The notes beneath the pieces are model-generated. The model made no database searches. It was not told where the DNA came from and was given only the letters and a program-made list of their open reading frames with translations. Shown piece by piece: positions 2,145 to 63,810 of a stretch of DNA of 64,000 bases. Where the stretch lies: NCBI GenBank assembly GCA_902768125.1, contig CACXKA010000009.1, positions 29,603 to 93,602 on the forward strand, read 5' to 3'. How positions within the stretch are numbered: position 1 is the stretch's first letter; every line of letters starts with the position of its first letter. This stretch comes from an uncultured Bacteroidales bacterium. Its GTDB lineage: Bacteria > Bacteroidota > Bacteroidia > Bacteroidales > Bacteroidaceae. The position numbers and the translations under genes were made by a program.

Positions 2145-3349
2145 AGTTCTATGTAATCGGCATCACCGACAAACCACACCCGTTCTTTCCTCCCGATGTA
2201 CTGAACGTGATTCAGAGTGGACACACTTTCTCTGGTGGCAAGCGTCACCATGAGATTGTCACCCCATACCTTCCCGATGGGGCTGAGTGGATTGACATCA
2301 CAGCTCCCCTCACAGCAGTCTATGAGCAGTATCAACACTCAACCCTCCATACTCCACAGTCAACCATCATCGTCTTTGCCTCGGGCGACCCTCTCTTCTT
2401 CGGCTTTGCCAACACGCTCAAACGTGTATTTCCCGATGCAGAGATGAAGGTCTTTCCCACCTTCAACTCCCTACAGATGCTGGCACATCGCCTACTGATG
2501 CCCTACCATGACATGCATGTCGTCTCCCTCACAGGTCGCTCATGGCAGGAGTTCGACCGTGCCCTTATCGAAGGGGCTTCTCCTATAGGCATCCTGACCG
2601 ACAAGGAACATACTCCTGCCGCCATTGCCCAGCGTATGCTCGAATTTGGCTATACCGATTACACCATGCATATTGGGGAACATCTGGGTAATCCCCAACA
2701 CGAAAAGCTTTCTATCCTCCCATTGGAACAGGCATCCCAGCAGGACTTTTCCATGCCCAACTGCCTTATCCTCATAGGTGCTCACCCACGAAGATGGGGT
2801 ATTCCCGACCACGAATTCGCTCTTCTCGACCATCGAGAGAAGATGATCACCAAGATGCCTATCCGAATCCTTTCCCTACAGGCACTCGATTTGCCTCGCC
2901 GTCATACGCTATGGGACATTGGCTTCTGTACGGGCAGCATCAGTATAGAAGCCCGTTTGCAGTTTCCACACCTTCACATCGAGGCTTTCGATATCCGACC
3001 TGATTGCGAAGCTCTTCTTCGGGAGAATGCGCGCCGTTTTGGAGCACCTGGCATCAATATGCACATCGGCAACTTCTTGGAAGCTGACATCACATCTTTG
3101 CCCCGTCCTGATGCTGTTTTCATCGGTGGTCATGGCGGGCAGCTCAAAGACATCCTCAAGAAGGTGCTGACCGTATTGACCGATGACGGATGTATCGTGA
3201 TGAATAGCGTGAAAGCCCCCAAGGTCTTGACCGACAGTCACCAGCTTTGGGACGAGGCTTGCGAAGAACTTGGTTTGATACAAGATGCACCTTCCAAAAT
3301 CATATTGAACGAAAACCATCCAATCGAGATACTAAAATGCAGCAAATAG
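2141..3349 (+). CDS. cobL: Precorrin-6Y C5,15-methyltransferase (decarboxylating), CbiE-CbiT
   Basis: This 402-residue protein combines CbiE (residues 1-225; FASGDPLFFG loop at about 79-88) and CbiT (residues 235-402). The CbiT SAM motif I reads DIGFCTGS at 259-266, where DIGxGTGS is usual, so the second glycine is replaced by cysteine. CobL methylates C5 and C15 and removes the C12 acetate carboxyl group of the corrin ring. The chain contains a low-complexity stretch (QHSTLHTPQST, residues 65-75) encoded by five degenerate 7-bp repeat units at 2333-2367. It sits just before the conserved FASGDP loop and looks like an insertion. The gene overlaps its upstream neighbour by 4 bases and the downstream one by 13. 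Confidence 0.92.
   Translation: MKFYVIGITDKPHPFFPPDVLNVIQSGHTFSGGKRHHEIVTPYLPDGAEWIDITAPLTAVYEQYQHSTLHTPQSTIIVFASGDPLFFGFANTLKRVFPDAEMKVFPTFNSLQMLAHRLLMPYHDMHVVSLTGRSWQEFDRALIEGASPIGILTDKEHTPAAIAQRMLEFGYTDYTMHIGEHLGNPQHEKLSILPLEQASQQDFSMPNCLILIGAHPRRWGIPDHEFALLDHREKMITKMPIRILSLQALDLPRRHTLWDIGFCTGSISIEARLQFPHLHIEAFDIRPDCEALLRENARRFGAPGINMHIGNFLEADITSLPRPDAVFIGGHGGQLKDILKKVLTVLTDDGCIVMNSVKAPKVLTDSHQLWDEACEELGLIQDAPSKIILNENHPIEILKCSK
2333..2367 (+). repeat. Degenerate 7-bp tandem repeat inside cobL
   Basis: Five consecutive heptads (CAACACT, CAACCCT, CCATACT, CCACAGT, CAACCAT) lie in the CbiE coding region. The period of seven is not a codon multiple, so gain or loss of one unit would shift the frame. 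Confidence 0.6.
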
Positions 3350-4833
3350 CAGTCATACAAATCAATGAGGCTGGCAAAGATATCGCATTCTTGCTTCAGC
3401 GTCAGTTTAGTGCCCAAATCATACAACGAACAGATGTAGGTGAGTATTGGAACGACTTTGATGCTTTCATCTTCATCGGAGCGATGGGTATTTGTGTTCG
3501 CACTATTGCTCCCTATATCAAAGACAAGCATGAAGATCCTGCGATTGTATGTATCGACAGTCTGGGGAAGAACGTCGTCTCCGTTCTCTCTGGACATATC
3601 GGAGGTGCCAACGACCTGACCCGTCAAGTAGCCACCCTCCTCGAAGCCAATCCCGTCATCACTACCCAAAGCGACAACGCTGGTTTGTGGGCGCTCGACA
3701 CGTTGGAGAAGCGCTTCGATTGGTCTATTGCCAGTGGCATAGAAGATATGAACGACTGCATTTTTGCTTTTGTCAATCGTCAACCCACCGCTTTGCTTTT
3801 AGAGGTAAAAGATGAGGGCACCGACTATCTGGAGAAGACGCTTCCAACCCATGTGACCCTCATCAATGACATCAAAGAAGCCACGTCTGACAAGTACAAG
3901 TTACTCATTATCGTGTCACCTTTCAATCTGCCATATCCTGCCAATATGCTGGTTCTGCATTTTGTGCCGATGGTGGGAACGATAGGCTTTGGATTAGCAC
4001 ATCATCCACAGGATTACAAACAGATATATGACGAGATCAACCAGGCATTTGCCGAGCGAGGTATCTTGCCATGTTCCCACCGTTATTGTACCATTGACGT
4101 GAAGGCTGAAGAACCCTTTGTGGACGAGTTGAGGAATGTGTATCACGAAGATGTGGTGTTCTTCACCGCGGATGAACTGGCGAAAGTTGAAGTGCCCAAT
4201 CCCAGCACTACTGTTGAGAAGCATGTGGGCACGCCCAGTGTATGTGAGGCAGCCGCTATCATAGGGTCTAATTATGGTGAACTCATCATTCCTAAGGTGA
4301 AAGGCAAGAACTGGACAGCAGCCCTCGCCATCGACAAGCAACATCTCAAATCTCAAACCTCAAACTCCCAATCTCACATTGAGATTGTGGGTGCTGGTCC
4401 TGGCGACCCCGACCTCGTGAGTGTTCGTGGACGAAAAATGTTGGAGAAGGCAGACCTGATTCTCTATGCAGGTTCTCTGGTGCCCAAGGCATTGACTGAA
4501 TGTCACAAGCCCGGTGCAGTAGTGCGTTCGTCTGCCGACATGAACCTCGAAGAGCAATGTGCCCTCATGAAGGATCATTACGACCAAGGTCATTTCATCG
4601 TTCGTTTACACACGGGAGATCCTTGCATCTTCGGTGCTATTCAGGAGCAGATGGCATTCTTCGATCGGCATCAGATGTCCTATCACATCACCCCAGGCAT
4701 TTCTTCCTTCCTTGCTGCTGCTGCTGAGTTGAGAAGTCAGTTCACCATTCCAGAACGTACACAGACCATCATCCTTACACGAGGCGAGGGGCGTACTCCT
4801 ATGCCGGAAAAGGAGTGCAGCCATCGTGGATGA
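3337..4833 (+). CDS. CbiG fused to a truncated CobM/CbiF methyltransferase
   Basis: The start is placed at ATG 3337 (MQQIAVIQIN), inside the last codons of cobL, because codons upstream in this frame show no homology. Residues 1-310 are CbiG, the cobalt-precorrin-5A hydrolase that opens the lactone ring: FIGAMGICVRTIAPYI and VLSGHIGGAN are typical. A linker of 7-bp repeats (4341-4375) follows. Then comes the start of CobM/CbiF, the C11-methyltransferase (VGAGPGDPDLVSVRG, LYAGSLVP, HTGDPCIFGA, TPGISSF, TRGEGRTPMPEKE). After PEKE the frame runs into a stop at 4831-4833, while the CobM C-terminus continues in another frame from 4814. A CobM needs the later residues for its fold, so the methylase half is probably inactive unless this is a sequencing error. 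Confidence 0.88.
   Translation: MQQIAVIQINEAGKDIAFLLQRQFSAQIIQRTDVGEYWNDFDAFIFIGAMGICVRTIAPYIKDKHEDPAIVCIDSLGKNVVSVLSGHIGGANDLTRQVATLLEANPVITTQSDNAGLWALDTLEKRFDWSIASGIEDMNDCIFAFVNRQPTALLLEVKDEGTDYLEKTLPTHVTLINDIKEATSDKYKLLIIVSPFNLPYPANMLVLHFVPMVGTIGFGLAHHPQDYKQIYDEINQAFAERGILPCSHRYCTIDVKAEEPFVDELRNVYHEDVVFFTADELAKVEVPNPSTTVEKHVGTPSVCEAAAIIGSNYGELIIPKVKGKNWTAALAIDKQHLKSQTSNSQSHIEIVGAGPGDPDLVSVRGRKMLEKADLILYAGSLVPKALTECHKPGAVVRSSADMNLEEQCALMKDHYDQGHFIVRLHTGDPCIFGAIQEQMAFFDRHQMSYHITPGISSFLAAAAELRSQFTIPERTQTIILTRGEGRTPMPEKECSHRG
4341..4375 (+). repeat. Degenerate 7-bp tandem repeat in the CbiG-CobM linker
   Basis: Five heptads (ACATCTC, AAATCTC, AAACCTC, AAACTCC, CAATCTC) encode the linker LKSQTSNSQSH between the two fused enzymes, exactly at the domain border. 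Confidence 0.6.
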
Positions 4834-5092
4834 TGTCCAGAAGGAACTGTTGCAGGAATATCCAGCCGACACACCTGTCGCTGCTTGCTATCACCTCACA
4901 TGGCCTGACCAGAAGATTTATCGTGGGCAATTGAAGGACTTGGCAAAGATTGTACATGACAATCACCTGACCCTGACCACCATGCTCGTCGTAGGCGAAG
5001 CCATCGACAACCGTCACGGCTTTTCAGAACTATACAACAAAAACTTCACCCATCTTTTCCGGACGGGTGAAGATACTATTCAAATCGGGTGA
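4814..5092 (+). pseudogene. Frameshifted C-terminal part of CobM/CbiF
   Basis: This frame encodes SAAIVDDVQKELL followed by the conserved CobM tail (YPADTPVAACYHLTWPDQ, IYRGQLKDL, TMLVVGEAI). The preceding gene carries the first part of the same domain in another frame. Comparing the two parts with the usual CobM layout (GRTPxPE, then about 20 residues ending in a LSA motif, then the helix seen here), the bases for roughly 15-20 residues appear to be missing at about 4810-4816, and the frame changes there. The stop at 5090-5092 lies inside a 22-bp tandem repeat, so the natural end may also have been altered. A GTG at 4826 could start a short free protein, but that is unlikely to be functional. 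Confidence 0.8.
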
Positions 5093-5125
5093 AGATACTA
5101 TTCAAATCGGGTGAAGATAGTATTC
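5064..5125 (+). repeat. 22-bp tandem repeat, about 2.8 copies
   Basis: The 22-base unit starting CGGGTGAAGATACTATTC occurs perfectly at 5064-5085 and 5086-5107 and then degenerates from 5108. It spans the stop codon of the broken cobM and reaches to within a few bases of the convergent GH30 gene end. Confidence 0.85.
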
Positions 5126-5129
5126 GCTA

Positions 5130-7571
5130 TCATGGCATCACAACTTTGCGTCCACCGATGATATAGACTCCCTTCTGCATGTTTGCTTTGTCGATGCGAC
5201 GGCCCGAGAGGTCATAGACGGACTCGTCTTTAGTAATGTCAGAAGTCTGCTGAACATCTTCGATGGCGTCGGTCTCTGCAGACGCAGTGAGCGGAACAAG
5301 CATCCACTGCCGATGGATGGGTGTAGGATTGCTGTCCTGATACTGCCAGATAGTGACGGAGGTGCCTGCTGCCGTCGATTCGTTGCTCAGGTCAAAGCCA
5401 TGACTGCGGCCGTTGCTTGCCAAAATCTTGTAGAATGGATAGTCAACAGCGTCAATATAGAAATCTTGTTCGCTGGCTTGTCCCTTCTGAGCCGTCAGCG
5501 AGGAACTGTTGCTGTTGCGATGAGCCGTAAGTCGCAATCCGAGAGCATTCTGCAACCCATACTTCCCATTGCCCTTATCTGCCAATGTCCAACGCTGGGC
5601 ATCGCTGTATTCCAGATCCTCTATCGTCACTTTACTGCCTGTCGCCGTGATGGCGCGTGTAGTCTCATGACGAGGGATGATGATGTACTCGCCTCCATCA
5701 CGCAGCAGTTCTTCAGGTTGGATGGCTGCACTGCGGGCAGGGATGACGAGTGTGACAATGGACTGTGCAGGCATTGCTACACTGAGTGTGTTGCCATTGA
5801 GACTGATACCGTTTTTAGTGCTGAGCAGATTCTCACTGGCCGATGTGCGATATGCTTTGATATTGCTGAGCACAGGCAGTTCGGTAAAGAGCGAGAGGTC
5901 GATGTTGTGCATGGCCTTGGCTCCTTCGTTCAGCAGCACCACCACTAACGTGTCCCTGTTGGCATTGACGGCACAGAGCGATTGGGGGCAGGGCGAAGTA
6001 ATGATGTCGTAACCGCGACGGATGAAGCGTGTACAATGCTGACGCACATAGTAGTTCTTCACCTTCTTATACGTCTGGTTGGCAAAACTGCCCTGAATCG
6101 TACACCACTGGTCGTTGGCCTCCTCCATATACTGCCAATCAATCCAGGCTTCGGGTTGGATGTATCGCATATCGTCGAAGAGGCGCTGAGCCAATGCGAG
6201 GTTTCCGCCAATATCGTTGCCACCCGAACCTGTCTCGCTCATCCACAGTGGCATCTTAGACTGATGAGCCAACAGTGCCAGACGGGCACGGTCGGCATTA
6301 TTGCCTGAATAGGTATGCGTGTTCCATTGTCCCACTTTCGACAGCACACCAGCATTCTTGAATTGCTTAAAGCCCTCGACGCTGAGTCCGATGTTGGTTT
6401 CGTCTGATGCTGAGATGACCGTGTTGAGACCCGATGCACGCAGGATGGGTTCCAAGACACGGACAAACTTAATCTGAGACTGATAGTCGAAGTGGCAACC
6501 CTCCTGCGGGCCATTGGCATACCAGAAGTTGGTGACCGACTCGTTGAAAGGTTCGAGTGTCTTAAATTCTATACCGTATTCTTCCTTATAGTGCTTGCAC
6601 ACATCGACGAGATAGTGGGCGAACTCCTCGTAATACTCAGGCTTCAGATTGTCCTTGCCCCCATCCGTATTCCCGCTCACGCAGCCACTATAGGTCATAT
6701 AGTAAGGACATGAATTGCTGAAGGCCTCGAAGACGGCATCAGGACGTTTCTCCTTAATCTTCAACATAATCTTGCGCTGGGCTGCATCGCGGTCCCAATG
6801 ATAGTCATCGCCGCTGAAGTCCTTGAATCCCTCCATCTCGGCACGCAATCCCTTGCCGCGTCCCATGTGATGCTGGTCGCAATGTGCATTTGCAGGATCG
6901 TCGCCGCCACCGATGTTATAACGGAAATGGGAGTAGTTCAGACCTGTCGGGCTGACCATCCAATCCACTATCTCATCAATATGCTGGTCTGACCACTTGC
7001 CGCACTGACCTGCCCACCAGCAGAGCGACACGCCCCAACCGTCAAAGTGTTGGCGGACCACCTGCGGACTGACCATATAGTCGAAAGTGGCCACAGGCGG
7101 TGCTTGCATCACATCTTCGCTGAAGTACCACAGGTGCTTAATATCCGCACCATCCTTGTCGGTGTAAACCTTCTGATGAGGGTCGTTGCTGTCGGTGCCC
7201 AAATATCTGTTGTTCGCCTTGCAGCGCAGTTTGACGTATTGGCCCGAACCTGGCTCGATGCTCCATTTTGCCTCGTCAGCCGATGCGCTGGTCCCGAAGG
7301 TGGAGTTCCACGAACCCGTTTTCGACAGATATTGTGTTTTCCCTGCCACCTGGATGGTGTAGTAGCCATTGCCCACGGGCGTGATGGTCATCTGCTGAGG
7401 ATTCGCCTTCGTGGAGGCCTCAATCCATCCGCCATTGTCACTGCCCATCTCAAGGTGCTTTCCACTGCTATGCATCACATACAGCGTGGTGGCCTTGCTG
7501 AAACTGGTTTGAGCCGAAGCCGTCATAACGATAGCCACGGCCACAATCAATGATAGAAGTCTTTTGTTCAT
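5130..7571 (-). CDS. Secreted GH30-type glycosidase with ricin-like and sorting domains
   Basis: The ATG at 7571 gives an 813-residue protein with a signal peptide (MNKRLLSLIV through TASAQ). Residues 25-150 and about 640-765 look like ricin-type beta-trefoil carbohydrate-binding regions. Residues 165-560 resemble GH30 enzymes: HFDGWGVSLCWWA, an acid/base glutamate in EPFNES (E344) and a nucleophile in PLWMSETGSG (E446), followed by the usual beta-sandwich. The C-terminus (YDLSGRRIDKANMQKGVY, then GGRKVV) is the short beta domain used by many Bacteroidetes secreted proteins. The likeliest substrates are beta-1,6-galactans or similar plant side chains, by analogy with GH30 subfamily 5; this was not tested. 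It lies opposite to and between the two cobalamin blocks, with its own promoter. Confidence 0.85.
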   Translation of the reverse strand: MNKRLLSLIVAVAIVMTASAQTSFSKATTLYVMHSSGKHLEMGSDNGGWIEASTKANPQQMTITPVGNGYYTIQVAGKTQYLSKTGSWNSTFGTSASADEAKWSIEPGSGQYVKLRCKANNRYLGTDSNDPHQKVYTDKDGADIKHLWYFSEDVMQAPPVATFDYMVSPQVVRQHFDGWGVSLCWWAGQCGKWSDQHIDEIVDWMVSPTGLNYSHFRYNIGGGDDPANAHCDQHHMGRGKGLRAEMEGFKDFSGDDYHWDRDAAQRKIMLKIKEKRPDAVFEAFSNSCPYYMTYSGCVSGNTDGGKDNLKPEYYEEFAHYLVDVCKHYKEEYGIEFKTLEPFNESVTNFWYANGPQEGCHFDYQSQIKFVRVLEPILRASGLNTVISASDETNIGLSVEGFKQFKNAGVLSKVGQWNTHTYSGNNADRARLALLAHQSKMPLWMSETGSGGNDIGGNLALAQRLFDDMRYIQPEAWIDWQYMEEANDQWCTIQGSFANQTYKKVKNYYVRQHCTRFIRRGYDIITSPCPQSLCAVNANRDTLVVVLLNEGAKAMHNIDLSLFTELPVLSNIKAYRTSASENLLSTKNGISLNGNTLSVAMPAQSIVTLVIPARSAAIQPEELLRDGGEYIIIPRHETTRAITATGSKVTIEDLEYSDAQRWTLADKGNGKYGLQNALGLRLTAHRNSNSSSLTAQKGQASEQDFYIDAVDYPFYKILASNGRSHGFDLSNESTAAGTSVTIWQYQDSNPTPIHRQWMLVPLTASAETDAIEDVQQTSDITKDESVYDLSGRRIDKANMQKGVYIIGGRKVVMP

Positions 7572-7593
7572 AGTCTCTGATAGATTTGTCGGC

Positions 7594-7602: not shown

Positions 7603-7645
7603 CAAATTTTTTATCACACAGAGGGCATGTTCGGTAAAAAATCCG

Positions 7646-7706: not shown

Positions 7707-9491
7707 ATGGTATTAGTTTTTGGTGGCACGACCGAGGGGCGCAAGGCGATAGAGGCGCTTGAGGAGGCTGGCAACACGTTCTACTACAGCACGAAGACGG
7801 GCGAGCAGGACGTGCCGCTCCATCACGGTGTTGCCATCAGCGGAGCCATGGACGCAACCGCCATGACCGTTTTCTGCCAGAAGCATGGCATCAGACTCTT
7901 GGTCGATGCTGCCCATCCTTTTGCCGAGGTGCTGCACCAGACCGTGGCGAACGTGGCAGAGAGATTGAACATCCCAGCCATACGTTTCGAGCGCATCTTC
8001 CCCGCCAGAGACCCTGACATCACATGGATTGATTCCTACGCCTCCCTCATCTCACACCTCTCCCCCCAAAACTGTCAACTGTCAACTGTCAACTGTCAAC
8101 TTTCCACCCTCCTTGCCACCACCGGTGTGCAGAGCATCGCCCAACTAAAACCTTTGGAAGAACAAGGCGTGAAGGTGTATTATCGCATTCTTCCAAGAGA
8201 ATCATCCATTGCTTTGGCAAAGAAACAGGGTGCTGTTGATGAACAACTCTGCTACTATGAAGACCCTAGGGAGATTCCTGTGAATGCGGATGCCATCCTG
8301 CTGAAAGAGAGTGGGTCAACTGGCGGTTTTCAGGAGAAGGTGAAGGCGGCAAAGGCATTGGGTATGCAGATCTATGCCATCAAGCGTCCTGAAACACCCA
8401 CTATTTTTCATTGTGTGAATGGGGAACATGGTCTCAGGCGGATGGTGGAAAAACTGCTTCCCGAATTCTATCCTCTCCACAGCGGACTGACTACAGGCAC
8501 TTGTGCTACAGCGGCAGCCATTGCAGCAACTACCCGTTTGCTCAAAGGGGAAACACCACAAGAAGTGCCCGTCATCCTCCCCAACGGCGAAACCATCATG
8601 GTCCCCGTCGGATATGGAGAAGACTACGCCTACTGCATCAAGGAAGCAGGCGACGACCCCGACGTGACGGATGGCATCGAAGTGAGGGCAGAGGTGAGGC
8701 AAGTCGACCAATTTGAAATATGTGGTGGCGAAGGCGTGGGCAGATTCACTTTGCCAGGTTTCGACTATCCTCCAGGCGAGCCTGCCATCAACAAAGCACC
8801 TCGTCAAATGATTCGCCAGAATCTGGAGAAACTGTCAACTGTTAATTGTCAATTGTCAATTACCCTCTCTGTTCCTCAAGGTGAAGAAATTGCCCGTCAC
8901 ACCTTCAATCCCCGTCTTGGCATTGAAGGTGGCATCAGCATCATCGGTGTGTCAGGCATCGTCAAACCCTTCTCGGAGGAAGCCTTCATCGAGAGCATCC
9001 GCAAGTGTATGGAGGTGGCGAAGGCAAGTGCTTCGGAACGAATCGTGTTGCATAGTGGCATGAAGAGTGAAGGATTCTTACAGGACCACTATCCCCATCT
9101 CCCTCAACAGGCGTTTGTGGAGTATGGCAATGCCATTGGTGCCGCCTTGCAAATTGCTGACGAACTCCACATTCCCCGCATCACCCTCGGCATCATGTTG
9201 GGCAAAGCTGTGAAACTGGCAGAGGGACACCTCGACACCCACAGCAAAAAACAGACGATGAACAAAGCGTTCATCATCCAGATGTTAGAAGAGTCAGGCT
9301 GTGACACCAAGGTCATCGAACAAATAACAAGCATCACCTTGGCACGCGAACTCTGGGGCATCATCCCCTCCGAACAGATAGAAACCTTTTGCCGCACCGT
9401 CATCCGCCATTGCCTGACGCATTGCGCCCCCCTCCTGCCACACGGCGACCTCACCATCCTTCTGATAGACGACGCTGGCGGCATCCATTAA
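7707..9491 (+). CDS. Fused precorrin-6x reductase (CobK/CbiJ) and CbiD C1-methyltransferase
   Basis: The 594-residue fusion begins with CobK (residues 1-250; VLVFGGTTEGRKAIEAL start, LVDAAHPFA, LLKESGSTGGF), which reduces the corrin macrocycle. It continues with CbiD (about 252-594; SGLTTGTCATAAA, DDPDVTDG, GGISIIGVSGIV, ITLGIMLGKAVKLAEGH), the cobalt-precorrin-5B C1-methyltransferase of the anaerobic route. Two low-complexity insertions break the domains: NCQLSTVNCQLST at residues 123-135 and STVNCQLSIT near residue 380. Both are encoded by four copies of the same 7-bp unit. The frame is intact in this copy. The gene completes steps missing from the first block, but cobI/cbiL, cbiA and late genes are not in the window. 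Confidence 0.92.
   Translation: MVLVFGGTTEGRKAIEALEEAGNTFYYSTKTGEQDVPLHHGVAISGAMDATAMTVFCQKHGIRLLVDAAHPFAEVLHQTVANVAERLNIPAIRFERIFPARDPDITWIDSYASLISHLSPQNCQLSTVNCQLSTLLATTGVQSIAQLKPLEEQGVKVYYRILPRESSIALAKKQGAVDEQLCYYEDPREIPVNADAILLKESGSTGGFQEKVKAAKALGMQIYAIKRPETPTIFHCVNGEHGLRRMVEKLLPEFYPLHSGLTTGTCATAAAIAATTRLLKGETPQEVPVILPNGETIMVPVGYGEDYAYCIKEAGDDPDVTDGIEVRAEVRQVDQFEICGGEGVGRFTLPGFDYPPGEPAINKAPRQMIRQNLEKLSTVNCQLSITLSVPQGEEIARHTFNPRLGIEGGISIIGVSGIVKPFSEEAFIESIRKCMEVAKASASERIVLHSGMKSEGFLQDHYPHLPQQAFVEYGNAIGAALQIADELHIPRITLGIMLGKAVKLAEGHLDTHSKKQTMNKAFIIQMLEESGCDTKVIEQITSITLARELWGIIPSEQIETFCRTVIRHCLTHCAPLLPHGDLTILLIDDAGGIH
8072..8099 (+). repeat. Perfect CTGTCAA x4 heptad repeat in cobK
   Basis: Four perfect copies of CTGTCAA lie in the reading frame and encode the repeated peptide NCQLSTV. 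Loss or gain of one to two units would shift the frame. Confidence 0.9.
8832..8859 (+). repeat. CTGTCAA-type heptad repeat in cbiD
   Basis: Four units (CTGTCAA, CTGTTAA, TTGTCAA, TTGTCAA) related to the repeat at 8072 interrupt the CbiD part of the same gene. Confidence 0.85.
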
Positions 9492-9540: not shown

Positions 9541-9572
9541 CTTCATCTATCATTTATCATTTAGCGCAGCGC

Positions 9573-10031
9573 CTAATCCCCATCAGGATCGTCCACCGGC
9601 GTTCCGCCGCCACCTGATGGAGGTAGAGGCTCGTCATCGCCCGTTTCGCCACCACCTGATGGAGGCTGACCGCCACCACCGCCTTGGTCATCACCGCCAC
9701 CTGATGGAGGTAGAGGCTCGTCATCGCCCGTTTCACCACCACCATTGTTGGGCTTGTCGATGTTGCCGCCCGATGCACTGCTGATGTAGTAGAGTTTTGC
9801 ACGTTCCTCGATGCTGAGCAGCACGGTGATGAGGGCGTTGAGCGATTCGCTGGGCTGAAGAACGGCGAGTGCGTTCAAAATTTCGTAAGCACTGCGGATG
9901 GCTGCATCGACCGTCTTGCGTGCAGCGGCCAGTTCGCCCTTCACCTTGGCACTCTCGTTGTCCACGCGCACTGTGATGAGCTGCAGCACCTTGTTAGCTT
10001 GAATGACTGCCTTGCTCACCCACTCGGCCAA
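9573..10031 (-). pseudogene. C-terminal fragment of a DUF6261-like protein with a Gly/Pro-rich tail
   Basis: The frame has no ATG start; only a TTG at 10031 is available and the coding pattern simply begins there. Residues 1-85 are helical (KAVIQANKVLQLITVRVDN, RKTVDAAIRSAYEILNAL, SLNALITVLLSIEERAKLYY), resembling the C-terminal part of DUF6261 proteins of Bacteroidales. The tail is a repeated GGGETGDDEPLPPSGGG peptide encoded by two nearly identical stretches of about 38 bp. DUF6261 proteins are normally well over 200 residues, so the N-terminal half is missing. The break coincides with the start of an unrelated, AT-rich gene piece on the opposite strand, which suggests a rearrangement. The DUF6261 assignment is from memory of the family pattern. 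Confidence 0.5.
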
Positions 10032-26930: not shown

Positions 26931-26950
26931 TCTGTCTATTCTATTTTTCT

Positions 26951-26985
26951 TTAACCTTTAACCTATAACCTTTAACCTTATAACC
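26951..26985. repeat. Heptad repeat TTAACCT x5
   Basis: Five consecutive 7-bp units (TTAACCT, TTAACCT, ATAACCT, TTAACCT, TATAACC) fill the space between mutS2 and the PD40 gene, three bases before the mutS2 stop codon. Confidence 0.85.
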
Positions 26986-26987
26986 GT

Positions 26988-29525
26988 TTACACCAATTCC
27001 ACAATCGTGATGCCAGCTCCTCCAAATCGGATATCCTCATCGTAGAAGTCTGCCACGGGAGGCATGGTGTTGAGATATTGGCGGATAACGGTCTTGAGGG
27101 CACCTGTACCTGTTCCGTGCAGAATTTTCACACGAGAGGCTCTGGCTACACAAGCGTCATCAATAAAATATGTGACGGCTTGAATGGCTTCATCTCCTCG
27201 CATTCCTCTCACATCGAGCTGCTCCTTGAAATTGAGTGTGGTGTTGCGGATTTCGTTGCGTGTCTGCACACTCACAAACGTGGAAGCCACATTCTTTTCC
27301 TTCTTGGGTGCTTCTGCTGGCTCAAGGCGGTTCAGTTTCACATTGGTGGTGATGTGTCCGAAAACAATGGTTGCTTCGTTGCCGCTGATTTTCTGTATCT
27401 GTCCGATAGTGGTCTGCCCAATCATCCTCACGTAATCGTTGGCTCTGAGTGGTTGCTTCTCCGTTTCCGTCGTTGTTTTCACACTCTGTACAGCCTCTCC
27501 CTTTGAATCTTGGGGAGCTTTCTTCTTCTCTTCCTTCCTTTTCCTCCTTGCCACCAGTTTCTCCATCTGCCTTCTGATTTTCTCATCAGCAATATCTGGG
27601 TCAATCTCGCGGATGTCGTGCTTGAAGTCCGCAAGGTCTTGGCGAATCATTCTTGTGCGTTCCTTCTCAGCTTGTGCCTCCTTGATGTCCTTGATGGTCT
27701 GCTCAATCTTGGCGTTCGACTCTTTCAACATCTGCTCCGCTTCTTCCTTGGCGCGTGAGATGATGACCTTGCGTTCATCGTGCAGTTTCTGGATATCCTC
27801 CTCGTAGCGTTGGATGGTTTGTTCCATCTGCTTTTCGTGTTGGTGGATGCTCTGGCGCTTTTGTTCCCAATAACGCTTGTCGCGCACGATGTCTTGCAAG
27901 TATTTGTCAGAGTTGATATAGTCCTTGCCCACAATCTCGCTGGCATCCTTGATCACCTCGTCAGGAATACCTGTCTTGCGGGCAATCTCAATGGCGAACG
28001 AACTACCCGGATTGCCGATGGAAAGTCGGAAGAGCGGTTGCATCAGCTGGCGGTCATACAGCATCGCACCATTCACGACACCCTCTGTCTCTTGGGCATA
28101 ATGCTTCAGGTTCTGATAGTGGGTGGTGATGACACCAAAGGCACGTTTCTTGTTGAAGACCTTCAGCATTGCTTCCGCCATTGCCCCACCAATCTGGGGT
28201 TCTGTACCTCCACCAAACTCATCAATGAGGATGAGGCTCTTTCCGTCACAATGTTTCATCATATTTTTCATGTTGAGCAAATGGGAAGAATAGGTCGACA
28301 GGTCGTTTTCCAGACTTTGTTCGTCGCCAATGTCGATGAAGATGCTGCGGAAGATGCCGAACACGCTGCTCTTGGCAACAGGGACTGGCATACCGCATTG
28401 GAACATATATTGCAACAAACCTGTGGTCTTCAGGCAGACAGACTTGCCACCTGCATTAGGTCCAGAGATCAACAGGATGCGTTGTTTCTGTGTGAGGGTG
28501 ATGTCCAAAGGAACCACCTTGCGAGGTTCTTCGTCTTGATGTTGGAAGTTGTAGTCGCGAAACTTCAAATCCAACAACGGATGGATAGCAATTGCCCAAT
28601 CCAGCACCTGCTTGTTCTCCATGCGTGGTTCCGTACTGTTGGTGATGATGGCGAACTTTGCCTTCGCACGAATAAAATCAATCTTGGCGAGGAAATCGTA
28701 GCCCAACAGCATCTCTTCCACTTCTGGACGAACTGTTTGTGTGAATTCCAGGAGAATGCGATGAATCTCCTTGCGCTCCTCACTTTCCAGTTCACGAATC
28801 TTGTTGTTGGCTTCCACCACCTCTGCGGGTTCAATAAACACCGTTCGACCTGTATCCGATTCATCATGCACGATACCACGAATCTTTCTCTTCATGGCTG
28901 GAGCTACAGGAATGACCAAACGGCCATCGCGGAGAGTAGGAGAGATATCCTTGTCAATGAGTCCTTCCCCTTTCGCCGATTTCAGAATGTTCTGTAAAGC
29001 CCGTGACACACTGCCTGCTGTGGATGCCAGTTCCCTGCGAATCTCCATGAGAGTGGGGGAAGCAGTATCCTTCACATGCCCATACTTATCCAATATCTGG
29101 TCAATCCGCTTCACCATTTGCGGATAGGTCTTCACATCAGCCGTCAGCGCATAAAGGTGGGGATAAACGGGTATGCTATGTTCATCATCGGCATAGCGGT
29201 GGAGAAAAGTGTAAACGTTGTCGATGGCAGCCAACGACCGTTGCAAGTTAAAGAGTTCCTCCACTTCCAGACAGGTGTTCTGGATGCGGATGCGTTTCAG
29301 CGATGGGCGCACATCAAAGAAGTTCTGGTCAGGAAAGTCCTCTTCCTGCAGAATGCGCACAAACTCCATCGTCTGCTTCACTTGTCGGTGGATGTCGTCG
29401 AATTGTATGGAGAACGCCATCTCCCTCACCTGTTCCTCACCCAAAGGGCAGAGGCATAAAGCCGTGAGGCGTTGGCGTATCTGGTCAAAGCCTATCTTCT
29501 GTTCGTATGTGTTAGGATAAATCAT
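26988..29525 (-). CDS. mutS2: MutS2-family DNA-binding ATPase/endonuclease
   Basis: The start ATG at 29525 (MIYPNTYEQKIGFDQIRQRL) is preferred to one three codons upstream because it lies just after the promoter. The 845-residue protein has the MutS core and clamp, a Walker A loop ISGPNAGGKSVCLKT, Walker B LILIDEFGGGTEPQIG, a long coiled coil (about 510-640), and a C-terminal Smr nuclease domain with LDVRGMRGDEAIQAV, VKILHGTGTGALK and RFGGAGITIVEL. MutS2 suppresses recombination and, in some bacteria, rescues collided ribosomes. The -7 box ends only five bases before the ATG, so the transcript would be leaderless or nearly so. Confidence 0.95.
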   Translation of the reverse strand: MIYPNTYEQKIGFDQIRQRLTALCLCPLGEEQVREMAFSIQFDDIHRQVKQTMEFVRILQEEDFPDQNFFDVRPSLKRIRIQNTCLEVEELFNLQRSLAAIDNVYTFLHRYADDEHSIPVYPHLYALTADVKTYPQMVKRIDQILDKYGHVKDTASPTLMEIRRELASTAGSVSRALQNILKSAKGEGLIDKDISPTLRDGRLVIPVAPAMKRKIRGIVHDESDTGRTVFIEPAEVVEANNKIRELESEERKEIHRILLEFTQTVRPEVEEMLLGYDFLAKIDFIRAKAKFAIITNSTEPRMENKQVLDWAIAIHPLLDLKFRDYNFQHQDEEPRKVVPLDITLTQKQRILLISGPNAGGKSVCLKTTGLLQYMFQCGMPVPVAKSSVFGIFRSIFIDIGDEQSLENDLSTYSSHLLNMKNMMKHCDGKSLILIDEFGGGTEPQIGGAMAEAMLKVFNKKRAFGVITTHYQNLKHYAQETEGVVNGAMLYDRQLMQPLFRLSIGNPGSSFAIEIARKTGIPDEVIKDASEIVGKDYINSDKYLQDIVRDKRYWEQKRQSIHQHEKQMEQTIQRYEEDIQKLHDERKVIISRAKEEAEQMLKESNAKIEQTIKDIKEAQAEKERTRMIRQDLADFKHDIREIDPDIADEKIRRQMEKLVARRKRKEEKKKAPQDSKGEAVQSVKTTTETEKQPLRANDYVRMIGQTTIGQIQKISGNEATIVFGHITTNVKLNRLEPAEAPKKEKNVASTFVSVQTRNEIRNTTLNFKEQLDVRGMRGDEAIQAVTYFIDDACVARASRVKILHGTGTGALKTVIRQYLNTMPPVADFYDEDIRFGGAGITIVELV

Positions 29526-37104: not shown

Positions 37105-37213
37105 AAAATTAGGGTGAATCACTACTCATAGTGACTCACCCTAACAAAAAATTGCTTATCTCACGACAAGCAATCTTTACTAACCTTAAAATAAATCTAA
37201 TACCATGAAAAAC
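37105..37213 (-). ncRNA. Predicted small RNA with its own promoter and terminator
   Basis: On the minus strand a textbook promoter (TTTGC, 19 bases, TATCTTTGC) ends at 37219. The predicted transcript starts near 37213 and runs about 105 bases. It has an unpaired U-rich 5' part, then a hairpin with seven-base arms ATTGCTT and AAGCAAT, then a long terminator hairpin whose 15-base arms (37109-37123 and 37130-37144) differ at one pair, followed by seven Us. No coding frame is visible on that strand. It resembles multi-copy intergenic small RNAs of Bacteroides, possibly the FopS family, but that is from memory only. Confidence 0.7.
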
Positions 37214-37218
37214 ACGTT

Positions 37219-39679: not shown

Positions 39680-39752
39680 GTGCAAAAAATCGAGTCCGTG
39701 AATAGAATGAGACTATTTTTTCATTTTTGCTGTTGAGATGCCCCCCCAATCT

Positions 39753-39822
39753 CTTGAACCTTGAACTTTTGAACTCTTGAACTCTTTAACCGATAACCTA
39801 TAATCGATAACCTTTAACCTTT
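39753..39822. repeat. Degenerate 7/8-bp tandem repeats
   Basis: Units of the type CTTGAAC/TTTTGAAC grade into CGATAAC/CTTTAAC units, nine or so in all, in the divergent spacer between DUF5063 and the esterase. Confidence 0.75.
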
Positions 39823-39897
39823 ATTTTTTCCCTCCAATTAAACCAACTCCCATAGACTTAGTCTAAACCAGTAGCATTTTATTTTCAATTATTATAG

Positions 39898-40851: not shown

Positions 40852-40860
40852 TTCCCTAAA

Positions 40861-40933
40861 CCCTAACCTTGAACTTTTGAACTCTTGAACCCTTACCCAA
40901 CCGATAACCGATAACCTCTAACCGATAACCGAC
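40861..40933. repeat. Degenerate 7/8-bp tandem repeats
   Basis: CCTTGAAC-type octads followed by CGATAAC/CTCTAAC heptads fill the spacer between the esterase terminator and the aldo/keto reductase promoter, like the array at 39753. Confidence 0.75.
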
Positions 40934-41955: not shown

Positions 41956-42016
41956 CGATAACCGATAACCGCTAACCTTACACAGATTTCACAGATTCCA
42001 CAGATTTCACAGATTA
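41956..42016. repeat. Heptad and 9-bp tandem repeats directly after the reductase stop codon
   Basis: CGATAAC, CGATAAC, CGCTAAC (41956-41976) are followed by four 9-bp units of the type CACAGATTT (41981-42015). The array begins immediately after the TGA at 41953-41955. Confidence 0.85.
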
Positions 42017-46160: not shown

Positions 46161-46195
46161 GTTTATAGTTTATAGTTTATAGTTTATAGGTTATA
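46161..46195. repeat. Heptad repeat GTTTATA x5
   Basis: Four perfect GTTTATA units and one GGTTATA lie between the glucosaminidase stop and the shared terminator. Confidence 0.9.
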
Positions 46196-46203
46196 GCAAA
46201 TAA

Positions 46204-47339: not shown

Positions 47340-47367
47340 AACTCCTAACTTCTAACTCCTAACTTTT
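47340..47367. repeat. Heptad repeat AACTCCT-type x4 between divergent promoters
   Basis: AACTCCT, AACTTCT, AACTCCT, AACTTTT abut the -7 box at 47371 and occupy the place where its upstream promoter element should be. Confidence 0.85.
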
Positions 47368-51386: not shown

Positions 51387-51404
51387 CCCTCTTCCCATTA
51401 TAAT

Positions 51405-51535
51405 CTCTAAACTCTAATCTCTAAACTCTAATCTCTAAACTCTAATCTCTAAACTCTAATCTCTAAACTCTAAACTCTAAACTCTAATCTCTAAACTCTA
51501 ATCTCTAAACTCTAATCTCTAAACTCTAATCTCTA
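51405..51535. repeat. Long heptad array CTCTAAA/CTCTAAT, about 19 units
   Basis: Nearly perfect alternation of CTCTAAA and CTCTAAT spans 131 bases between two convergent genes. The stop codon of the minus-strand gene (51533-51535) is formed inside the last unit. Confidence 0.95.
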
Positions 51536-57860: not shown

Positions 57861-57923
57861 GCGGGTTATTTCTCAATAAGGGTGGGTTATTGGAAAATAA
57901 GCGTGGGTTATTGGGGGAGAGGG
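57861..57923. repeat. 21-bp repeat with GGGTTATT core, three copies
   Basis: GGGTTATT recurs at 57863, 57884 and 57905, exactly 21 bases apart, with similar flanks. A multiple of three keeps frames open on both strands, producing spurious open frames. Confidence 0.8.
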
Positions 57924-58279: not shown

Positions 58280-58306
58280 GAACAAATATCAAAATCACAG
58301 GTAATC

Positions 58307-59056: not shown

Positions 59057-59058
59057 AA

Positions 59059-59976: not shown

Positions 59977-60014
59977 CTGATTCCAAGTAGAGAATCGCGA
60001 TGTTCTAAAAATAC

Positions 60015-60188: not shown

Positions 60189-60206
60189 ACATATACTAAG
60201 ACAAGT

Positions 60207-60755: not shown

Positions 60756-61537
60756 TGTATAGTAGTATGGAAAAGAATTGGCGTTTCGTTTGGCAGGCAA
60801 ACATATATTGGGCTTCGTGCGAACCTTGCACGGCTGCGGTGTTCTCCACGCAGGTGCGAAGTGCACAGGTGAACTGGAAAATCAGCACACGCAGGGCGAT
60901 CATCAAGGCTGTGCGCGAGGGACTCCCTCTGGATGAATGGACTCGTCGCAGCGACTATCAGCGGTGGTGCATTGAACAGTTGGCAAAGCCTCGTGCTGGT
61001 GAGAAGTTCGCTATGAAACCAGAGCCGCTGCGTTTGCTACAGTGGGGCGAGGAACTGAAAACATCGCTGTCTGGATTTGTTTATGGCGTGCGTGAGTTTG
61101 CGCTGGTGCCAAAGCTGGATAAGAATGGCAATCCCAAATTGGATTCTAGTGGAAAGCAAATCATGTATCGACGCCGTAAGCAAGAGAACGTGACGCATCT
61201 GAGTGGATTGTTTATGAGCGACTATGATCACTTGCCTTTCGACCCTCGCGAACTGTATGAAAAGACGAAGCAGCCTGGGTATCCTTGGAAAACCTGTCTG
61301 GCTCACTTGACCAGTTCGGGAGAAGGGTTGCGTCTGGTGAGCGAGTGCCTGCTTGGTATGGGTAACATTGCTGACCAGCAATATCTCCAGGCGCAGGAGC
61401 TTGGGATGCTGAATGTCATTGGAACTACTGGCAAACATGTCACTGATAACAGTTGTGTGAATTGCGACAAATTCTCATTCTGTCCCCGTGAAGAGGACAT
61501 CCTCTATATCGATGAAGACAAGCTATTTCACATATAA
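60755..61537 (+). CDS. Primase-like protein with VirE N-terminal (BT4734-type) domain
   Basis: The ATG at 60755 overlaps the previous stop; an ATG at 60767 (MEKNWRFVWQ) is an alternative. The 260-residue protein matches the BT4734/VirE N-terminal domain family: RAIIKAVREGLPLDEW, THLSGLFMSDYDHLPFD, in which the aspartates of the D-x-D step would bind metal, and AHLTSSGEGLRLVSE, the S-x-G-x-GL-R motif. The fold belongs to the archaeo-eukaryotic primase group. The tail has a C-x2-C...C-like cluster (CVNCDKFSFC), perhaps zinc binding. With the DUF3987 protein next to it, it forms the two-gene module often found in Bacteroides genomes. Confidence 0.75.
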   Translation: MYSSMEKNWRFVWQANIYWASCEPCTAAVFSTQVRSAQVNWKISTRRAIIKAVREGLPLDEWTRRSDYQRWCIEQLAKPRAGEKFAMKPEPLRLLQWGEELKTSLSGFVYGVREFALVPKLDKNGNPKLDSSGKQIMYRRRKQENVTHLSGLFMSDYDHLPFDPRELYEKTKQPGYPWKTCLAHLTSSGEGLRLVSECLLGMGNIADQQYLQAQELGMLNVIGTTGKHVTDNSCVNCDKFSFCPREEDILYIDEDKLFHI

Positions 61538-61568
61538 TTTATTTTATTAACTACTAAATTTTAAGAAG

Positions 61569-63560
61569 ATGCAAGAAACGGATCTTTTTGAAAGCGAATT
61601 CGACCGTCAGTATGGCGATTCGTATCGAGATGGTAACAGTGCCGCCACCAATTCCGACCACCAGCTGCCCGGCAATGCAGCAGGGGTGGGGGAAGGCGGA
61701 CAGTCATTAACCCCAAAAGCAAGTGACGAGACCGCTAAGGAGTTGGCTGCGCAGTTGCTTCCGAAGGACATGGAGAAGGAGAAGTATCTGGTGTTCGGCT
61801 ACGACCCTGTGGACTTCGTAAACACCCTGTATCCCAATGGCCCCAACTGCCGCCACGATGCAGCCCGTGACCTGTACAACGACCTCCTCGTGATGTACGA
61901 CGGCCACTGGGAACTGGCTCGTAACAAGTTGCTGACAATCCAGTTTGTGCAAGACCTCATCAGCGAGCGTGGCATGGCTGAGATTGACCGCATTGTGGAG
62001 GGTGGTCGCAAGCTGTTCCAGAAGAAGGAGAGCGAGAACTTCAATTCACTGCAGCCTTCGAAAGCCATGCGTGATGCCATTGAGCAGGTGACGGGACGTA
62101 AGTACAACGTGCTGAGACTTGAACAACGTGGCGTGATGCAGAGCCAGGCTGCGGCGCTACAGATGGAGATTCTGCAGACGCTGGAGAACATCGGCGCTGA
62201 GTTTGCCAAGCTGATTCCTTACTTCCCACTGCTGAAGCTGCTGTGTTTCCGCATGAAACAGAAGTACTATCCTGCCGTGTTCTTTGTGGGTGGCGCCTTT
62301 GCCATGACGCTGATGACAAGGTGCTGGTACCACTTCTGGCCGAAGCCCGGGAAGAAGAACCGCCTGAACTCGCTGGTGATGCTCATCGGTCGTATGGGTG
62401 GCATGAAGTCAGTGGCTGTTGACTTGGAGGAAATCATGATGGAGCCTATCCATGTGGCAGACGCTCCTCAGATAGCCGCCCTGAATGCCAGCAACGCCGA
62501 ACGTGAACAAAACAATGGCGGCGCCAAGAGCAAGAAGCCACGTCCAACGGGTGTGTATCGTGCCTTGCCACCAGAGACCTCCACTGCAGCTCTGCGTGAG
62601 GCTGAGGCAAATGCCCACGAGACGCTGGACGGTGAGGAGTTCTCCCTGCATGTCAGCATCTTTGATTCAGAACTTCAGAACACGCTTTCGCAGTTGAAGA
62701 AGAGCTATATGGATGCGCTGCAGACGTATTGGCTGAAGTCGTATCATTCGGAAAAGCATGGTGCCTATCTGAAGACTTCGAACGCTCCTGTGGGTGAAAC
62801 GCCTGTACATTTCAATGCCTGCTATACAGGAACGGACGACGCCTTGAACGCACTGAACACTGAGAAAAACAACGTGAACGGGTTGATGTCGCGCTTTACG
62901 GTGGTGCCCAATGCCGACAGTAACTTTGAGATGCTCAAGCCTGCGCCTTACGACGAAGTTGCCAAACAGAGAGAGGCTGACCTGCGCGAGTTGTGCTATA
63001 GGCTGAACGACTGCAAGGGGGAGATTCCATGCGAACCTATCTCGAAGGCGTTGCATCTTTGGACAGAGCATCACATGGCAGACGCCGGTGAAGACCATGA
63101 CTACGCTGAGGAGGACTTGGTGAAGCGCCCCTGCTGGCATGCCATCAACTTCGTGCTCCCGTTCGTGGTGACTCGCCATTGGAATCAAATGGTGCAGGAT
63201 GCTGACGGGAAGTGGAAGTGCGGTCCCGACTTCAAGGTTGACCAGAAGGATGTACGCCTGGCTATCCTGATTGCCAACGCCCAACTCGCTTTCCAAGAGC
63301 ATTATTGCAAGGCTATCCTTGAGAAACACTATGATGATCTGGCAGCGAAACAGTCATCGAACGTGTGCCACAAGAATAAGACGTGGATAGGCTATCACCG
63401 TCTGCCTGACCCATTCTCCTCGGAAGACGTGGATGAGTGTTTCGGCTACGAGGGCAAGACCGGCAGTATCTGCAGCCGTCTGAAGCGACTTCAAGACCAA
63501 GGTCTGGCTCAGAAGATCACCAGCGGCAAGGACAAGGGCAAGTATCGAAAACTGATGTGA
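61569..63560 (+). CDS. DUF3987-type protein, helicase-like with an altered P-loop
   Basis: The 663-residue protein begins with an acidic, low-complexity part (1-60), then helices typical of the DUF3987 partner of VirE-N primases (YDPVDFVNTLYPNGPNCRHDAARDLYND, FPLLKLLCFRMKQKYYPAVFFVGGAFAM). The likely P-loop reads MLIGRMGGMKSV at about 271-282, where GxxGxGKS is expected; the glycine before lysine is methionine. A winged-helix-like C-terminal end (GYEGKTGSICSRLKRLQDQGLAQKI) may bind DNA. A terminator follows. It starts 32 bases after the primase-like gene. Confidence 0.75.
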   Translation: MQETDLFESEFDRQYGDSYRDGNSAATNSDHQLPGNAAGVGEGGQSLTPKASDETAKELAAQLLPKDMEKEKYLVFGYDPVDFVNTLYPNGPNCRHDAARDLYNDLLVMYDGHWELARNKLLTIQFVQDLISERGMAEIDRIVEGGRKLFQKKESENFNSLQPSKAMRDAIEQVTGRKYNVLRLEQRGVMQSQAAALQMEILQTLENIGAEFAKLIPYFPLLKLLCFRMKQKYYPAVFFVGGAFAMTLMTRCWYHFWPKPGKKNRLNSLVMLIGRMGGMKSVAVDLEEIMMEPIHVADAPQIAALNASNAEREQNNGGAKSKKPRPTGVYRALPPETSTAALREAEANAHETLDGEEFSLHVSIFDSELQNTLSQLKKSYMDALQTYWLKSYHSEKHGAYLKTSNAPVGETPVHFNACYTGTDDALNALNTEKNNVNGLMSRFTVVPNADSNFEMLKPAPYDEVAKQREADLRELCYRLNDCKGEIPCEPISKALHLWTEHHMADAGEDHDYAEEDLVKRPCWHAINFVLPFVVTRHWNQMVQDADGKWKCGPDFKVDQKDVRLAILIANAQLAFQEHYCKAILEKHYDDLAAKQSSNVCHKNKTWIGYHRLPDPFSSEDVDECFGYEGKTGSICSRLKRLQDQGLAQKITSGKDKGKYRKLM

Positions 63561-63571
63561 TGTTTCGGTAA

Positions 63572-63590
63572 TATTGCATTATTGCATTGC
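63572..63590 (+). repeat. Perfect 19-mer, copy C
   Basis: Same 19 bases as copy A, twelve bases after the DUF3987 stop codon. Together with the inverted copy B it brackets the block 58216-63590. Confidence 0.95.
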
Positions 63591-63632
63591 ATTTGATTTT
63601 TCGTTTTCCATAGTGTAATTTTATGGCGTGGA

Positions 63633-63660
63633 GGGGTGTCTGTCGTGAGACAGTTGCCCC
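63633..63660 (+). terminator. Terminator of the primase-like operon
   Basis: GGGG...CTGTC pairs with GACAG...CCCC around a GTGA loop, followed by T-rich sequence. Confidence 0.7.
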
Positions 63661-63760
63661 TTGTTTCTTCTCTTTCGTTACTTAATTTATCACTCTAAAA
63701 AAACTGATAAAAACATTGAAAATAATTGTTTTATTATTTGGCGGTTTCGGAAATATTTCG

Positions 63761-63769
63761 TACCTTTGT
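63761..63769 (+). promoter_or_regulatory. Promoter -7 box for the last gene
   Basis: TACCTTTGT with TTGG at 63738-63741, 20 bases upstream. A leader of about 160 bases follows. Confidence 0.6.
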
Positions 63770-63782
63770 AATGTAATTAAAA

Positions 63783-63810
63783 GTTTAGAGTTGAGGGTTT
63801 AGAGTTGAGA
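63783..63810. repeat. Heptad repeat GTTTAGA/GTTGAGG x4 in a leader
   Basis: GTTTAGA, GTTGAGG, GTTTAGA, GTTGAGA lie just downstream of the promoter at 63761, in what should be the untranslated leader. Confidence 0.85.

Follow-up and report, generated by a model that had tools for sequence, protein, structure and literature searches.

Heptamer repeats are known from cyanobacteria as STRR, and in Rickettsia palindromic elements, which are short repeats forming single palindromes, lie in frame within working genes. The arrays described here also occur in frame within genes, as tandem heptamers where the Rickettsia elements are palindromes. The heptanucleotide repeats of Mrazek 2007, as cited in excerpts of PMC4679880 and PMC4692102, are alike in that seven is favoured, and slippage was proposed for them; PMC4679880 cites the same work for heptanucleotides being the most abundant class in most genomes. 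The sections of MacGregor 2015 (PMC4679880) drawn on here describe TAACTGA, along with some further heptamer repeats, from five Bacteroidetes, one of them Paludibacter. The TAACTGA repeats, found also in Beggiatoaceae and Cyanobacteria, are like ours dispersed heptamers mostly in spacers, and some Bacteroidetes have longer mixed heptamer arrays, as here. A statement in the sequence-only reading of this DNA, that such a class is not described in Bacteroidales, was therefore too strong; our literature search found no report of heptamer arrays for Prevotella. The GGGAATC and GGGGA(C/T)T repeats of Xanthomonas and Nostoc are likewise degenerate heptamers that vary in length and sequence between close species, with 186 and 183 heptamer patterns in two Xanthomonas genomes, and they form quadruplexes, each unit having three or four G (PMC4692102, cited section). 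Heptamer repeats of bacteria are already known, and the arrays reported here are a variant of them. They appear to differ from the Mrazek repeats in forming related families with a common core, in lying in genes too, in their hairpin cassettes and in differing between lineages. The bacterial preference for seven-base repeats has so far apparently been based on a 2007 conjecture; in the group studied here, with its dense arrays, many congeners and sites alignable at codon level, step size, rate and any copying between loci are measurable.

We analysed a stretch of 64,000 nt from an uncultured Bacteroidales bacterium (the window), using TRF and an independent scoring caller (match +1, mismatch -2, score at least 10). 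The features are as follows.

2333..2370, plus strand: very degenerate heptamer stretch, probably decayed, inside a CbiET-like gene (tetrapyrrole methylase domain)
4343..4376, plus strand: CTCAAA[C/T] array inside a CbiG-methylase fusion (TRF and caller)
8070..8101, plus strand: AACTGTC array in the CbiJ part of a CbiJ-CbiD fusion (TRF, 100% matches)
8830..8861, plus strand: AACTGTC/AATTGTC array in the CbiD linker, a site occupied in many species
9543..9563, plus strand: short ATTTATC array downstream of the CbiJ-CbiD gene (TRF and caller)
26949..26990, plus strand: CTTTAAC/CTATAAC array between two minus-strand genes (TRF and caller)
39751..39823, plus strand: mixed CTTGAAC / TAACCGAT / TAACCTTT array between divergent genes (TRF and caller)
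40855..40932, plus strand: mixed CTTGAACT / AACCGAT array between two plus-strand genes (TRF and caller)
41956..41977, plus strand: CGATAAC array immediately 3' of an aldo/keto reductase gene (TRF and caller)
46161..46196, minus strand: CTATAAA array (GTTTATA on the plus strand) between convergent genes (TRF and caller)
47340..47364, plus strand: AACTCCT array just upstream of a TATCTTTG box (TRF and caller)
51401..51535, plus strand: CTCTAAA/CTCTAAT array between convergent CotH-like and DUF6935 genes, the longest, with 19 units and 98% matches as a 14-mer (TRF)
63783..63812, minus strand: short CTCTAAA/CCTCAAC array (GTTTAGAGTTGAGG on the plus strand; TRF only)

Ten of the 12 coordinates named before our analysis passed the scoring caller (array starts 4343, 8070, 8830, 9543, 26949, 40899, 41956, 46161, 47340 and 51401, the array at 40899 being part of the block first named at 40861). 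The one at 63783 was called by TRF only (1.9 copies of a 14-mer, or 4.4 of a 7-mer at 79%), and at 2333..2370 neither TRF nor the scoring caller called an array. The array at 39787-39823 is an addition to that earlier list. An Rfam search of the window gave a single match, away from the heptamer arrays.

The same sites are variously occupied in relatives. At the 2333 site, a clear CTCTCAC array is present in the relative G061 and arrays also in L077 and L094, and none in the aligned G006 or G005. The 4343 site holds a CTCTAAA array in both G061 and G006, and a hairpin-rich insert of a different kind in G005. The array at 8070..8101 amounts to about 12 extra residues in the CbiJ part; among 81 aligned proteins, this insert occurs in the window and L078 only, and a few others carry different inserts there. 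G006 has a related, rearranged array at the 26949 site and a 21-nt segment with no scored array at the 46161 site (flanks 92%), and the AACTCCT array at 47340 is longer in G056 (L141). The block at 40855..40932 is mixed by TRF, with period 8 at 40868-40894 and period 7 at 40899-40932, and flanks that are 97-99% identical in G006 enclose 78 nt in the window versus 406 nt there. At 39751..39823, flanks 96-100% identical in G006 enclose 73 versus 186 nt of different heptamers.

In the 864 kb scanned of the window's own genome (G000, ~90% complete), 119 arrays were scored at period 7, against 34 at period 8 and 30 at period 9. No period-7 array passed the score in 444 kb of dinucleotide-shuffled sequence. 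A chance origin was rejected on these shuffles and on the comparison with other periods. In the spacers of the 864 kb, tandem runs with two or more exact units numbered 119, 70, 128, 35 and 19 for periods 5, 6, 7, 8 and 9, and 80 related loci (1.46 Mb) held 23, 203, 44 and 45 arrays at periods 6, 7, 8 and 9. The seven-base excess over neighbouring periods that marks bacterial heptanucleotide repeats is present here. Period-7 density in congener samples of 20-240 kb ranged from 0 (G024, 40 kb) to 18.8 per 100 kb (G017, 80 kb). Sixteen other families of the order (231 kb) showed no period-7 excess, with 5, 4, 3 and 6 arrays at periods 7, 8, 9 and 10. The class seen in the window is real and genome-wide; neither a lack of period-7 excess nor absence from all relatives was observed. 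An assembly artefact is unlikely because most arrays are short and two are present in the locus of Prevotella sp. tf2-5 (L135), by its record title not a metagenome assembly; neither locus L099 (tc2-28) nor locus L106 (Xylanibacter brevis) has any.

Arrays occur inside genes, behind stop codons, in the spacers of convergent gene pairs and ahead of promoter boxes (gene starts were placed crudely), and the placement described earlier, in spacers, by promoter boxes and inside genes, held up: gene calls contain 32 of the 119 arrays, and among the 87 spacer arrays 17 have a TAnnTTTG box within 30 nt, compared with 8.1% of 4000 random spacer positions. This enrichment is what regulatory elements under selection, for example binding sites upstream of promoters, would give, and the orientation is the same in 11 of 12 box-adjoining CTCTAAA and TTTTCAC cases. 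The TTTTCAC array at L029:18424 is also unchanged in G061 at 83% flank identity. However, 0/19 CTCAAAY and 1/21 TAACC spacer arrays are near a box, more than a quarter of all arrays are in gene calls, and arrays are more changeable than control spacer segments (below), all of which makes a regulatory origin very improbable. Most arrays are probably without function, and some by promoter boxes may have been recruited.

Heptamer arrays change faster than the surrounding DNA. Of 28 G000 arrays whose flanks match those in the congener G006 at 95% identity or more, 22 differed, 16 of them in length, versus 82/191 and 25/191 control spacer segments (p=0.0005 for any difference, p=9e-7 for length; the compared genomes are related and the pairs non-independent, so these and all later p-values are too small). 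Of these length changes, seven are by a multiple of 7 (p=0.004 against a chance of 1/7), the copy-number change in unit steps that belongs to bacterial heptanucleotide repeats, and the other nine are not. Families differed in this respect, with identical arrays in 0/11 cases for CTCAAAY versus 6/8 for TTTTCAC plus TGTCAAY (p=0.001). Whole switches of unit are rare over short times: across the panel of 80 loci, 18 array pairs had flanks of 95% identity or more, and in none of them did the unit type differ by more than one base. Near-identical flanks enclose a clear replacement in few cases (window 39751, L020:12991 and L039:19671). One array, at L032:17783, shows a gradient of units from CTAAAC through CTCAAC and CTGTCAA to TTGTCAA. 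Gene-length and spacer differences in such genomes may, as a caution, be repeat noise.

The arrays had been thought to share a period and no sequence, which the units contradict. A core T-[ACG]-A-[AC] (T-V-A-M), derived from the same data on which it was counted, is present in 110/119 units, versus a mean of 58.6 and a maximum of 73 in 500 within-unit letter shuffles. After strand and rotation choice, the units hold 6.6 bits versus 4.72 (sd 0.08, 15 within-unit shuffles). The commonest are AAACCTC (19), AAAAGTG (10), AAATCTC and AAACTCT (9 each) and AAAGGTT (7). A stricter pattern, Y-N-T-M-A-M-Y, fitted only 57/119 units (shuffle mean 17.5, maximum 36), and the looser core was adopted. TAACTGA holds the loose core and not the stricter one, which means little because about half of shuffled units hold T-V-A-M. 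Its dominance elsewhere has no parallel here, where it is absent from the listed units of the 119 and not a main unit; in BOGUAY, near variants of it are rarely repeated and most arrays lie just before start codons, in forward orientation (PMC4679880, cited section). The Xanthomonas and Nostoc units are without the core, and their runs of three or four G are absent from the main units here, a minority (AAACCCT, AACCCTT) having three. Slippage alone does not explain the shared core.

Six author-defined families lie side by side in G000. CTCAAAY x3 matches numbered 187 in G000, 115 in G006 and 23 in G001, with 0-5 in each of the remaining 42 congeners (45 in all), and TTTTCAC x3 is present in 43/45. 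A phylum search with one family only, AACTCTA x3 with 1 mismatch, matched 8/395 genomes including its own, the other seven at one place each among the matches listed. Reversed-query controls of other searches gave no baseline, since they matched other real families and the TTTTCAC x3 control is a rotation of the query. Like arrays (distance at most 1) made up 0.20 of 383 pairs at different sites of one genome, versus 0.094 of the 11,113 inter-genome pairs (500 permutations reached at most 0.157). Units more alike than composition gives, bursts of families confined to lineages and cassettes common to several sites all speak against pure local slippage, by which each array would arise in place from chance seven-base duplications and likeness would reflect base composition. 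That account has already been proposed for other bacteria and agrees with the 7-bp steps and with the likewise excessive period 8 and 9 arrays; we regard it as distinctly unlikely here.

Two hairpin cassettes accompany the arrays. Nine of the 10 cassette A copies in the 864 kb have CTCAAAY units as flanks, cassette B is found next to arrays of several families, and each was gained or lost between G000 and G006. Such dispersed cassettes would fit arrays belonging to miniature inverted-repeat or REP-like elements that a transposase mobilises in trans. Mirrored arms match fully in 3/16 G000 array pairs within 150 nt (L025:4784-4889, L025:16968-17067 and L044:8069-8168) and at 89% in one more, and the TTTTCAC x3 family of nearly all congeners includes some opposite pairs among the matches listed. 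Yet most arrays stand alone and have no fixed ends, inspection of the aligned empty sites by eye showed no target duplication, and the Y1 family search (PF01797) gave no transposase match in G000, ~90% complete (14/45 congeners were over the cut-off, and G006 had one match below it). We consider mobile elements unlikely.

We favour, with moderate confidence, heptamer satellites in which slippage in seven-base steps homogenises arrays and copying between arrays spreads families and hairpin cassettes. One set of related heptamers, the majority having T-[C/A/G]-A-[A/C] once in each unit, would be dispersed to many sites. Within a site, slipped-strand copying by seven bases would add, remove and homogenise units; the changes themselves are seen by comparison, and slippage is their presumed cause. 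Between sites, array segments and hairpin cassettes may be copied by ectopic conversion or template switching, probably where arrays supply short homology, as the likeness of arrays at different loci suggests. Some families of a lineage would be active (here CTCAAA[C/T]) and others more stable (TTTTCAC, TGTCAA[C/T]), and in genes arrays would persist where the frame stays open and their length preserves it. The single copying mechanism suggested at first is plausible, but the data point to two steps, slippage at the site and copying between sites. Why the step is seven is conjectural here; it may be the duplex stretch contacted by the polymerase, a proposal of Mrazek as cited in the excerpts above.

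A fixed unit length with changing sequence and lineage-specific families would also fit templated synthesis, in which repeats would be written into breaks by a reverse transcriptase of the telomerase or DRT10 type, templated by a species-specific RNA. DRT10 produces 9-nt tandem repeats from an RNA template, short and of fixed length as here, the product there being cDNA made by reverse transcriptase (PMC12632851, cited section). RVT_1 was over the cut-off in 17/45 congeners, among them the array-rich G017 and G056; no match (E 0.001) was found in the array-bearing G000, G006, G001, G003, G005, G012 and G023, of which only G003 is >95% complete and the rest 65-90%. Six coexisting families in G000 are not expected from one template, and we give this explanation hardly any probability.

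The CbiD linker holds an array in 27/81 genomes (caller score at least 8), with 16 unit types; 38/81 have a linker of >8 residues without a scored array and 16/81 a short one. On a tree made by a quick method with the linker columns excluded, raw minimum counts give at least 9 changes of presence and at least 17 changes for the 16 types among the 27 bearers. The unit type matches that of another array of the locus for 14/25 types, with 7.6 expected (p=0.0016). A dedicated, so far unknown activity might copy seven-base units between arrays and rewrite fixed sites towards the genome's current family, with the T-V-A-M core as part of its recognition, an idea we hold decidedly improbable; if true, the unit at the CbiD linker would be replaced with the reading frame, and in many cases the length, unchanged. 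Among in-gene arrays, sense units are stop-free in 25/30, largely because genes were called as open frames. Vitamin B12 genes here carry a repeat of species-dependent unit with the frame still open.

Period-7 arrays were profiled in 864 kb of the source genome (2.78 Mb, 41 contigs, ~90% complete), comprising the window and 40 further stretches. A simple period-7 caller detected 119 arrays, from which roughly 380 would be expected genome-wide; spacers hold 87 of them, and the other 32 fall within crude gene calls. Seven was in excess, periods 8 (34 arrays) and 9 (30) were raised too, and the 87 period-14 arrays are probably mostly period-7 arrays read as dimers. The heptamer repeats noticed in the sequence-only reading are real and extend more widely than it stated. 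Ten of its 12 named places were borne out by TRF and the simple caller, 63783 holds a weak array only, and neither program called an array at 2333. Other tandem repeats were also seen.

Window 5064-5125: tandem repeat of 22 bases
Window 9610-9743: tandem repeat of 42 bases
Window 57863-57914: tandem repeat of 21 bases

The arrays had been described as sharing a period and no common sequence; their units are related to one another. With strand and rotation picked by expectation-maximisation, the source-genome units held 6.6 bits of information vs 4.72 (sd 0.08) when letters were shuffled within each unit. Units from a panel of 80 related CbiJ-CbiD loci, titled Prevotella, Prevotellaceae, Bacteroidaceae, Bacteroidales, Bacteroidetes or Xylanibacter and many rumen-derived, held 5.75 bits vs 4.21 (sd 0.06). 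A core T-V-A-M occurred once per unit in 110/119 source-genome units (shuffle mean 58.6, maximum 73), 161/203 panel units (81.0, 102), 138/151 units of the congener G006 (70.8, 88) and 28/32 of the relative G061 (13.4, 21). The stricter Y-N-T-M-A-M-Y fitted 57/119, 89/203, 57/151 and 25/32, respectively, exceeding the maximum of 500 shuffles in all four sets; because both patterns were derived from the same data, these counts are descriptions more than tests. Among known heptamers, TAACTGA fits the loose core and not the stricter one, and GGGAATC and GGGGATT fit neither.

Some families are confined to lineages. CTCAAAY x3 matched 187 times in the source genome, 115 in G006, 23 in the congener G001 and 0-5 in each of the other 42 congeners. 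With 2 mismatches allowed, CTCTAAA x3 matched 17 of 25 genomes in the genus, from 1 to 290 times each, and 3 of 16 genomes outside its family; TTTTCAC x3 was present in 43 of 45 congeners. The fraction of orthologous panel array pairs (counted in both directions) alike within one base was 1.00 with flanks ≥95% identical (18 pairs), 0.67 at 90-95% (9), 0.62 at 85-90% (16), 0.38 at 80-85% (60), 0.23 at 75-80% (269) and 0.24 at 60-75% (309), a drop that is partly ordinary divergence; at non-orthologous sites it was 0.094.

Both flanks of 48 of 111 source-genome arrays were located in the 829,562 bases of G006 compared, and the other 63 were not found there. Arrays changed beyond the controls: among 28 with flanks ≥95% identical (mean difference 2.2%), six were identical and 22 differed, vs 82 of 191 control spacer 32-mers away from arrays. 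Length had changed in 16 arrays (25 controls), with a preference for unit steps (a multiple of 7 in seven). None was identical in CTCAAAY (0/11), CTCTAAA (0/4), TAACC (0/3) or others (0/2), vs 3/5 for TTTTCAC and 3/3 for TGTCAAY. The alignments show units gained or lost, units permuted and a few whole replacements; slippage is the probable cause of the unit-step changes.

Two dispersed hairpin elements are shared among arrays (L010 to L048 are stretches of the sample).

Cassette A (AACCTTCAGCTCGGCGGAGCC), hairpin element: L011:5665, L011:7818, L016:16873, L020:7522, L024:16622, L038:17015, L038:17827, L040:17047, L041:305, L048:3071
Cassette B (CTTATCGTATCTTTAGCACGCTTGGCTTGCCAAG), dispersed hairpin element: L010:8936, L016:9888, L017:16727, L026:1686, L034:6016, L035:13103, L039:16689, L041:358

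CTCAAAY-type units flank nine of the ten cassette A copies (exception, L024), and the eight cassette B copies in 864 kb lie beside arrays of different families. Between the source genome and G006, cassette A was gained or lost as 21 nt inside a gene call (L034:1154), as was a segment carrying cassette B. RVT_1 and Y1 had no match in the ~90% complete source genome. At window 41981-42015 a nine-base repeat, CACAGATTT/CACAGATTC, adjoins a heptamer array; the neighbouring site 40855 is occupied in G006 by 406 nt that include similar stretches of CACAGAT and ACACAAAT.

Sixteen array pairs lay ≤150 nt apart in the source genome, three with fully matching mirrored arms and one with 89%.

L025:16968-17067, L044:8069-8168, L025:4784-4889, L017:13822-13921: inverted heptamer arrays, centre 39-47 nt

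In the three fully matching pairs the variant units run in mirrored order, which suggests copying within a hairpin. Where a single copying mechanism was proposed earlier, two steps are suggested here, slippage within an array and, probably, copying from one locus to another. As to why the unit has seven bases, PMC4679880 and PMC4692102 credit Mrazek with the idea that polymerase contact may set it.

A TAnnTTTG box lay ≤30 nt from 17 of 87 spacer arrays vs 8.1% of random spacer places, mostly near CTCTAAA (8/16), TTTTCAC (4/11) and AAAAACT (3/7), and rarely near CTCAAAY (0/19) or TAACC (1/21). Some arrays near promoters may have been recruited, and most arrays are probably without function. Sense units were stop-free in 25 of 30 arrays ≥15 nt inside gene calls, largely because genes were called as open frames.

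Heptamer repeats are already known in bacteria, and those described here are a variant of them. Literature searches for heptamers in Bacteroidetes or Prevotella, with subscription papers mostly outside reach, gave only PMC4679880 as relevant, and none of these searches turned up a description of this variant, in which unit families are related, turnover is fast and sites within genes are used.

Among the 80 loci, the nearest to the window CbiJ-CbiD protein was L078 (uncultured Bacteroidales RUG14675; 89% identity). The CbiJ array at 8070, an insertion of ~12 residues, occurred among 81 proteins only in these two. A CbiD linker array was present in 27 of 81 genomes, in 16 unit types at a lenient threshold (score 8; a few types, those of L066, L089 and L135, are weak). 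The linker was exactly 14 residues in 16 of the 27, nine of which have the TCA of their units at the same positions. These nine seem either to have been kept at the site by descent while every unit changed in concert, or to have been converted, in register, from another place; the other linker arrays may be separate gains. The CbiD type was within one base of another array in the fetched locus in 14 of 25 genomes vs 7.6 expected (p=0.0016, inflated by relatedness of the genomes). The CbiD linker of L062, L065, L077, L101 and L106 carries hairpin-rich inserts of another kind; such GGGAGGGG/CCCCTCCC-like inserts, also in CbiG of L147, occupy gene sites where other species carry heptamer arrays. 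Elsewhere in the window, 37142-37215 (-) matches FopS (RF04319), a Bacteroidetes sRNA family in Rfam, at 61.2 bits (gathering score 56).
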